The notes beneath the pieces were generated by a model that saw nothing but the letters and a program-made list of their open reading frames with translations, did no database searches and was not told the DNA's origin. Below are positions 14,627-24,257 of a stretch of DNA of 40,706 bases, one piece after another; within the stretch, counting starts at the first letter, position 1, and each line of letters starts with the position of its first letter. Where the stretch lies: contig JAQXAR010000059.1 of NCBI GenBank assembly GCA_029252805.1, positions 1-40,706 on the forward strand. Direction: 5' to 3'. This stretch comes from Rickettsiales bacterium (GTDB lineage Bacteria; Pseudomonadota; Alphaproteobacteria; Rickettsiales; JALZUV01). A program made the position numbers and the translations under genes.

Positions 14627-15391
14627 TTATAGGTGCTTAAGTATTTCGCTGTAAAGAGAAACCTCTGTTGAATTGGGCTGCGCGCCCCTATCCATTGCCG
14701 TGACAAGCGCTGGAATCTGCGGGATTTGCGCTAGTAACGGCACGTCTATTGCTTCCGCCAGCTTTGCTCCCCCCCCCTCGCCAAATAGGGCGTGGTGGTT
14801 ACCTTGCGCATCTTCAAACCAGCTCATATTCTCGACCACGCCTAGGATGGGAATATTCACCTTCTGGAACATATCAGCTGCTTTGCGCGCATCGGCCACT
14901 GCGACATCCTGCGGCGTCGTGACGATAACCACACCATCCATCGGCACTTGCTGCGCCATCGAAAGCTGCACATCACCGGTTCCTGGCGGGAAATCGACAA
15001 GTAACTTCGTCTGCTCACCTTGCGCCGTCCACCGCGTGCCGCGCGCTAATTTAGCCAGCGCCTTAGTGACCATTGGCCCGCGCCATACAGCAGCAGTCTC
15101 TTCTGGCAACAAAAAGCCCATGGAGTTGCAGCCAATGCCGTAATTGGCTGGCGGAATCATCAGACCCTCTTCTAGCTCAGGCTGACCGGCAAGGTTCAAC
15201 ATTCGCGGAACGGAAGGGCCGTAAATATCAGCATCTAGAATGCTAATCGACTGACCTTGTGCGGCTAAAGCATGCGCAAGCATGACGGTGGTTGTTGATT
15301 TTCCAACACCGCCTTTGCCTGAAGCAATGGCAATAACACGCTCGACTCCATTGAGCGGGAGATGATTTATCTGCGGGGGCTTCAGTGCCAT
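14627..15391 (-). CDS. Mrp/ApbC/NBP35 family P-loop ATPase (iron-sulfur carrier type)
   Basis: A 254-residue cytosolic deviant-Walker ATPase of the MinD/Mrp superfamily, whose members carry and transfer Fe-S clusters. Seen: IAIASGKGGVGKSTT at about residues 20-34 (deviant Walker A with the signature lysine), SILDADIYGPSVPRML, DFPPGTGDVQLSM and the closing VVENMSWF. Two differences from classical Mrp/ApbC: there is no N-terminal DUF59 domain, and the CxxC that normally follows VVENMS is missing (F-E-D-A-Q-G-N-H-H). Many alphaproteobacterial homologues also lack the first cysteine, so loss of function is not implied. The segment F-G-E-G-G-G-A-K is encoded by a run of nine G (14769-14777). AGGAG precedes the ATG; divergent from hflK. 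Confidence 0.88.
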   Translation of the reverse strand: MALKPPQINHLPLNGVERVIAIASGKGGVGKSTTTVMLAHALAAQGQSISILDADIYGPSVPRMLNLAGQPELEEGLMIPPANYGIGCNSMGFLLPEETAAVWRGPMVTKALAKLARGTRWTAQGEQTKLLVDFPPGTGDVQLSMAQQVPMDGVVIVTTPQDVAVADARKAADMFQKVNIPILGVVENMSWFEDAQGNHHALFGEGGGAKLAEAIDVPLLAQIPQIPALVTAMDRGAQPNSTEVSLYSEILKHL

Positions 15392-21954: not shown

Positions 21955-22398
21955 ATGGACGCAAATCTCTATCTCACGCTTAAAGCGCTGCACATCATTA
22001 GTTTCACTGCATGGATGGCCGGGTTATTTTACCTGCCGCGTCTTTATGTTTACCATGCGGAGGCGAAGGTCGGTTCAGAACTCTCTGAAACACTGAAGGT
22101 GATGGAAAATAAGCTCCTACGTTACATCATGAACCCTGCGATGATTCTTACCTTCGGCCTCGGTATCTGGCTTGTGGTGATCACCGGCTATGGCGGCCCG
22201 GGTACCGGCGCGTGGATTCACGCAAAATTAGCGCTCGTGCTTGGCCTTGCCGGCTTTCACGGTGCCTGTTCTGTTTGGCGCAAAAAATTCGCCGCCGATA
22301 CCAACACAAAAAGCCATAAGTTCTTCCGACTCGCCAATGAAGTACCAACCGTGCTGCTGATTCTGATTGTCTTTCTGGCGGTGCTGAAACCGTTTTAA
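21955..22398 (+). CDS. hemJ: HemJ protoporphyrinogen IX oxidase
   Basis: A 147-residue inner-membrane protein with four hydrophobic helices; it oxidises protoporphyrinogen IX to protoporphyrin IX, the step before ferrochelatase. Family marks: LKALHIISFTAWMAGLFYLPRLYVYH with the conserved histidine, a central MNPAMILTFGLGI, WIHAKLALV with a second conserved histidine, and the closing FFRLANEVPTVLLI. In alphaproteobacteria hemJ commonly lies near rho and hemE-hemH; here rho is nearby and hemE-hemH are at the right end of the window, so this strain has all three late haem genes within 19 kb. Confidence 0.93.
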   Translation: MDANLYLTLKALHIISFTAWMAGLFYLPRLYVYHAEAKVGSELSETLKVMENKLLRYIMNPAMILTFGLGIWLVVITGYGGPGTGAWIHAKLALVLGLAGFHGACSVWRKKFAADTNTKSHKFFRLANEVPTVLLILIVFLAVLKPF

Positions 22399-22401
22399 TC
22401 T

Positions 22402-22817
22402 TTATGGAAAGGTGATCTCCTTCTCACCAGATTTTCCGTTTGCAATTTGCTCTCCGATTGCTTCTCTCCAGCCAGACGGGGAGAAATTTCTTTTATTAAG
22501 AACAGCGTTTTTCTCTTCAATTCCTAAGCGACTTTGGTGCGTTGCTACCTTATCAGGCTCTGAAGTGGCAAACATGATCGGGGTTGTTACCCCCCCCTAC
22601 GCAAACTGAATTGAGCGTTAACGCCCGTTCTTTCCGTACCCTCCTGTAAGTTATAGTCACTGACAATAAGATCGTACTTTCCATTGCCTTTTTGTATCGC
22701 CTCATCGTAATTCTCTGCAAATTCAATGTCAAAATTGCGTTCAAAAGCAAATCCCATATTTATTCTCATATTCTTGTCATCTTCGATCCAAAGAATTTTA
22801 GGTTTCTTTTCTTCCAT
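22402..22817 (-). pseudogene. CheY-like response regulator receiver gene, frameshifted at a run of eight G
   Basis: The frame starting at ATG 22817 gives 76 residues (EEKKPKILWIEDDKNM at the start with the acidic Glu-Asp-Asp pocket, then YDLIVSDYNL with the phospho-acceptor Asp) and stops at 22587, right after eight G (minus strand, 22597-22590). Adding one G, or removing two, opens a further 61 residues to a stop at 22402: T-T-P-I-M-F-A-T-S-E-P-D carries the conserved Thr, and V-L-N-K-R-N-F-S-P the conserved Lys. Together they make a full single receiver domain of about 138 residues with no output domain. A perfect AAAGGAG lies 8-14 bases before the ATG, so expression signals are intact. It may be a phase-variable gene, a pseudogene or a sequencing error in the homopolymer. 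Confidence 0.85.
22590..22597. repeat. Homopolymer of eight C (eight G on the coding strand) at the receiver-gene frameshift
   Basis: This is the exact point where the receiver-domain reading frame breaks. G/C runs of this length are prone to slipped-strand gain or loss of one base, so the tract could switch the gene on and off. Confidence 0.9.
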
Positions 22818-22891
22818 TTCAAATACTCCTTTACTATCAGTTATTTAAAATACCTCACTTTTGTTAAAGATTCATTAAGTAAGTGCCTCTC

Positions 22892-22985: not shown

Positions 22986-24257
22986 ATGTCTGCTAGTATT
23001 AAAGAACTCAAACGTAAGTCTTCTGACGAACTCCTCAAATTAGCCGAGGAGCACAATGTCGAAGATGCCTCTGGTATGCTCAAACAGGAGCAAATTTTTG
23101 CGATTCTAAAAGCGATGGCAGAATCAGGCGAAACCGTGGTCGGCGAAGGCGTGGTTGAATTTCTGCAAGACGGATTTGGTTTCCTACGCTCATCACAATC
23201 TAATTACCTAGCGGGCCCGGATGATATTTACATCTCTCCAAAGCAGATAAAGACTCACGGCCTAAGAACCGGCGATACGGTTGAGGGCGAATTGCGCTCT
23301 CCCAAGAATAACGAACGTTATTTCGCGATGGATACAATCACTGCGATTAACTATGACCCCCCTGAAATGGCGCGCAAGAAAGCAACTTTCGATAACCTTA
23401 CGCCGCTCTATCCTGACCAACGCATGCGTCTGGAAATAGAGCAAACAGAGGTGGTCAAGAAGCCCGACCTCTCGATGCGTGTTGCCGATTTGGTTTCACC
23501 GCAAGGCAAGGGCCAGCGTACACTGATCGTCGCACCGCCGCGTACGGGTAAAACTGTTTTGCTGCAAAATATTGCCCATTCTATCACCGCCAATCACCCA
23601 GAATGCTATCTCATCGTTCTACTCGTTGATGAGCGTCCGGAAGAAGTGACGGATATGGATCGTTCCGTGAAAGGCGAAGTAGTTTCTTCGACCTTTGATG
23701 AACCCGCCCACCGCCATGTCGCGCTGGCCGAAATGGTGATTGAAAAAGCCAAACGTCTTGTGGAGCATAAGAAAGATGTCGTCATCTTGCTTGATTCCAT
23801 CACCCGCTTAGGCCGTGCTTATAACACCGTCGTGCCGAGTTCTGGTAAAGTCCTCACCGGGGGTGTAGATGCGAACGCATTGCAACGTCCGAAACGTTTC
23901 TTCGGTGCGGCACGTAACATCGAAAATGGTGGTTCTTTGAGCATTATTGCCACGGCCCTTATCGAAACCGGTAGCCGCATGGATGAAGTGATCTTTGAAG
24001 AATTCAAAGGAACCGGTAACTCCGAGCTCGTGCTTGATCGCAAACTCTCTGATAAACGCGTCTATCCTTCAATGGATATCGCTAAATCAGGCACGCGTAA
24101 GGAAGAGCTGCTCTATGATAAAGACGAGTTGGCTAAAGTTTGGGTCTTACGCAAAATCCTCAATCCGATGAGTCCTTTGGATGCAATGGAGTTCCTAACC
24201 AGCAAGTTGAAAGACACGAAATCTAACGACGATTTCTTCCAACAAATGAATAGCTAA
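22986..24257 (+). CDS. rho: Transcription termination factor Rho
   Basis: A 423-residue hexameric RNA-dependent ATPase that ends transcription. The order is an N-terminal helical domain ([19 protein letters not shown]), a cold-shock-like RNA-binding domain ([27 protein letters not shown]), then the RecA-like motor with Walker A PPRTGKT at about residues 182-188, [10 protein letters not shown], Walker [17 protein letters not shown] and the R-loop phrase [20 protein letters not shown]. The length and motifs are complete. The AEC permease starts 8 bases after the stop and is probably co-transcribed. Confidence 0.98.

Follow-up and report, generated by a model that had tools for sequence, protein, structure and literature searches.

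We analyzed a minus-strand gene that sits between two intact plus-strand genes within a window of 40,706 nucleotides (the whole stretch of DNA that was analyzed). On one side lies a convergent hemJ-like gene at 21955..22398, which ends 3 bp from the stop codon of the minus-strand gene; on the other side lies the divergent rho gene (22986..24257). The minus-strand gene is divided between two reading frames. Its first part (22587..22817) is a 76-residue open reading frame (ORF) that starts MEEKKPKILWIEDD and ends SLRRGG, with its TAA stop codon directly after GGGGGGGG (22590-22597), a run of eight G. One extra G would keep the frame open for 62 residues through the second part (22402..22589), up to a TAA at 22402-22404. 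The G8 run is the longest run within the gene and lies exactly at the frame break, where a change in its length would switch the frame.

Inspection of the sequence showed a Shine-Dalgarno-like AAGGAG (22826..22831, minus strand) 8 nt upstream of the ATG. The probability of encountering 62 stop-free codons by chance was ∼0.02, as judged from shuffled sequence. Codon usage in the coding frame scored 0.18 bits/codon for the first part and 0.05 bits/codon for the second, a weak value just under the host 5% quantile of 0.07, while the other same-strand frames scored between −0.30 and −0.44 bits/codon. Beyond the single frame break, no other stop or further damage was observed in the 62 codons, as is expected of a young pseudogene. 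An earlier, sequence-only reading had reported the frameshift, the well-formed ribosome site, and a decay that is not advanced, all of which we confirmed; it was also correct that a ninth G restores additional residues carrying the missing Thr and Lys, except that these number 62 rather than 61. A separate split product that initiates at an internal ATG (MFATSEPD...) is unlikely, as that ATG lies 14 nt from the G run and the product would be half a domain. We also noted a plus-strand terminator-like hairpin with a T-rich tail (22462-22485), which lies downstream of the hemJ-like gene and falls within the 3′ portion of the receiver gene. A 15-nt inverted repeat with 80% complementarity (22397-22411 and 22858-22872) occurs on both sides of the gene and was judged to be at chance level; no direct repeats were found around the gene.

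The joined product of 138 residues matched the receiver-domain profile PF00072 with 32.2 bits, above the cut-off of 30.2 bits, consistent with the receiver identity that the sequence-only reading had proposed, along with this profile search. The first part alone scored 22.9 bits, below the same cut-off, and the second part alone gave no match to PF00072. Together, the joined frames contain the conserved residues expected of a CheY-like receiver. The first part carries the strand-beta1 acidic pocket E-D-D (WIEDD) and the phospho-Asp (IVSDY), as had been read from the sequence, and the second part carries the beta4 Thr (FATSEPD) and the beta5 Lys (VLNKRN). The break falls in the loop before beta4, at residues RRGGV. 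Distant receivers align over the junction without a gap, several of them with R-K-GGVTCP or R-A-GGVTTP where the gene here has RRGGVTTP. This gap-free alignment argues that the intact state was one base longer, and thus that a receiver that was once intact has been broken by the loss of one base. The distant homologues that were checked encode GGV as GGG GGC GTG, as GGC GGC GTT, or with a single GGG, and are devoid of a G run. The sequence-only reading had named the lack of a G run in functional homologues as a finding that would count against a switch, and this is partly the case, for distant homologues only.

No close homologue of the receiver was detected among genome contigs, viral contigs, plasmids, and phages, nor in ∼900 genomes from the same order, class, and phylum; the best matches in these searches were generic receivers of at most 43% identity. 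The hemJ-rho adjacency is common to many genomes of the order, and the gap between the two genes is 587 bp here vs 95 bp in the sister species (G001), the one other species of the genus compared, where the gap lacks the receiver gene. No match to the receiver was found elsewhere in the G001 genome, which is 86% complete. The GC content of the receiver gene is 41% vs 49% for the window. The low GC content and the lack of the gene in one sister genome hint weakly at transfer, and a loss of the gene in G001 is a possible alternative to a gain; nevertheless, lateral gain would be the simplest reading, and the receiver gene is probably a lineage-specific orphan that was gained by lateral transfer. 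The host genome holds ∼30 other receiver matches, and the loss of one orphan is therefore plausible.

We surveyed G/C runs across the draft assembly (63 contigs, 2.19 Mb) by pattern searches and compared their numbers with the expectation from a first-order model. There were 33 runs of at least eight vs ∼24 expected, and 14 runs of at least nine vs ∼5 expected, a mild excess; the longest run was 11. The G8 run is by itself ordinary for this genome. Of these 33 runs, 19 lie within long ORFs that continue intact across them, and a G9 run in mrp (14769-14777) stays in frame. By codon scoring, the receiver's run was the sole one whose flanks are both coding-like in different frames, and no other frame break at a G run with both flanks scoring as coding was found in this genome. 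A G10 run (C10 on the coding-like strand; L060, G000:C23:858-867) has coding-like sequence on one side only; the ORF at this run had no Pfam match, and the locus is possibly another damaged gene.

Long runs were also seen in other members of the order. One relative (L172, G020:C1:189500-208500) has eleven minus-strand ORFs of 203-208 residues, spaced by ∼0.9-1.6 kb, which form a tandem paralogue array; ten of the eleven carry a C run located a few codons upstream of the stop codon (C10 in nine, C11 in one). G14 runs are present in two relatives (G007:C1:91180-91193 and G006:C55:10133-10146) and exceed any run in the window's genome.

We reasoned that the locus is best explained as a young null allele, or fresh pseudogene, of a lineage-specific and probably laterally acquired orphan receiver, a reading to which we give about an even chance of being right. 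A single-domain CheY-like receiver gene would have entered the hemJ-rho gap of this lineage, probably by lateral transfer, with Arg-Gly-Gly codons that happened to form a G run, from which one G would later have dropped. Translation would then end 76 residues in, short of beta4 and beta5, and the truncated product, which lacks the Thr and Lys conserved in receivers, is not expected to function as a phospho-receiver. We infer a lateral origin, a loss of function, and a deletion that is real and fixed. A lone frameshift of this kind is usually taken to reflect a recent indel or a sequencing error, as in a survey of frame transitions across prokaryotes (PMC3711429). Two observations count against a null allele: the undamaged second part is expected also of a switchable or still-functional gene, and an anomalous G11 run in rpoC suggests that the assembly can err at G runs.

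The main rival explanation, which we regard as less likely but possible, is that the gene of the organism is intact and that the consensus lost one G through an assembly or sequencing error. The assembly is a draft of 63 contigs, the rest of the receiver frame is free of decay, and lone validated frameshifts often turn out to be sequencing errors (PMC3711429). Furthermore, at the G11 run in rpoC (L093, G000:C58:12581-12591) of the same assembly, the four residues VDAL are replaced by GGGV within the otherwise conserved KRMLQESVDALFDNGRR, with intact flanks, a change that is hardly credible biologically; VDAL is kept in G001 and in all other relatives with a readable rpoC motif. Judged from this conservation, the rpoC run is probably a base-calling or assembly artefact. 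With a second G run that looks artefactual in the same assembly, an error in the receiver tract also becomes more likely, and a dropped G there is possible. However, in 19 long ORFs the other runs, of 8-11 G, keep their frame, which argues against a general homopolymer miscount, and the residues encoded by the receiver's run (GGV) agree with those of homologues, which gives the run a natural look and makes it unlikely that the stretch was overwritten.

The sequence-only reading had left the choice between a phase-variable regulator and a fresh pseudogene. Slipped-strand mispairing could switch the G run between 9 G (receiver on) and 8 G (receiver off), as in a contingency gene. A tract of eight G is of a length at which slippage starts to be noticeable, which speaks for such a switch, as does the exact coincidence of the break with the gene's longest run, between intact upstream signals and an intact downstream frame. 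FlgR of Campylobacter jejuni is a documented phase-variable response regulator, switched through A/T runs (PMC3930126); the idea of a switchable response regulator is therefore not absurd, and the earlier statement on the rarity of such tracts in response regulators should be qualified accordingly. On the other hand, G runs in this genome are modestly above chance (33 vs ∼24) and none exceeds 11, no second run divides two coding-like frames, and the run is not conserved in distant homologues. We compared tracts using about a quarter of the G001 genome, in which an orthologue that could be aligned over the run was available for only four of them: those in a glycosyltransferase-like gene (in a divergent stretch), a TsaD-like gene, a membrane protein, and rpoC. 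The receiver itself is missing from G001 and is a lineage-specific orphan, not a surface, lipopolysaccharide (LPS), or restriction-modification gene. The position of the tract is thus the one support for phase variation, which we consider improbable, and a shade more so in its full form, in which a stand-alone alphaproteobacterial receiver is turned on and off at random by a poly-G tract to give heritable mixed signalling states in the population. The fresh pseudogene fits better.

Lastly, −1 ribosomal frameshifting on G-GGG-GGG or polymerase slippage might yield some full-length protein from the G8 allele, given that the run permits perfect P- and A-site codon re-pairing after a −1 slip and that both frames are coding-like by codon usage, but this is very unlikely: no stable stimulatory RNA structure was found downstream of the run (folding z-score −0.6), transcriptional insertions were reported in A/T runs only, with G/C runs not prone to slippage (PMC5574713), and no homologue has the same two-frame arrangement, so that nothing points to its conservation.

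Compared with known systems, the gene resembles single-domain response regulators (CheY-like, PF00072) in its acidic pocket, phospho-Asp, beta4 Thr, and beta5 Lys once the frames are joined; it differs from them in being spread over two frames, in having Arg-Asn instead of the usual Pro after the Lys, and in that no close homologue was found for it. It shares with C. jejuni FlgR a response regulator coding sequence whose frame is set by a homopolymer, whereas FlgR is an NtrC-type activator with A/T runs for which switching has been shown, and here a G8 run lies in an orphan receiver of which one allele was seen. If the tract were a true switch, the reach of poly-G contingency control would widen to include an alphaproteobacterial orphan signalling protein. 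The gene also resembles the singleton frameshifted genes of the GeneTack survey (PMC3711429), with which the receiver shares a lone frame transition and the lack of a conserved recoding site in relatives, no difference being evident. As it stands, the locus is a worked example of how a gene gained recently may come to bear a single frameshift at a homopolymer that formed by chance.
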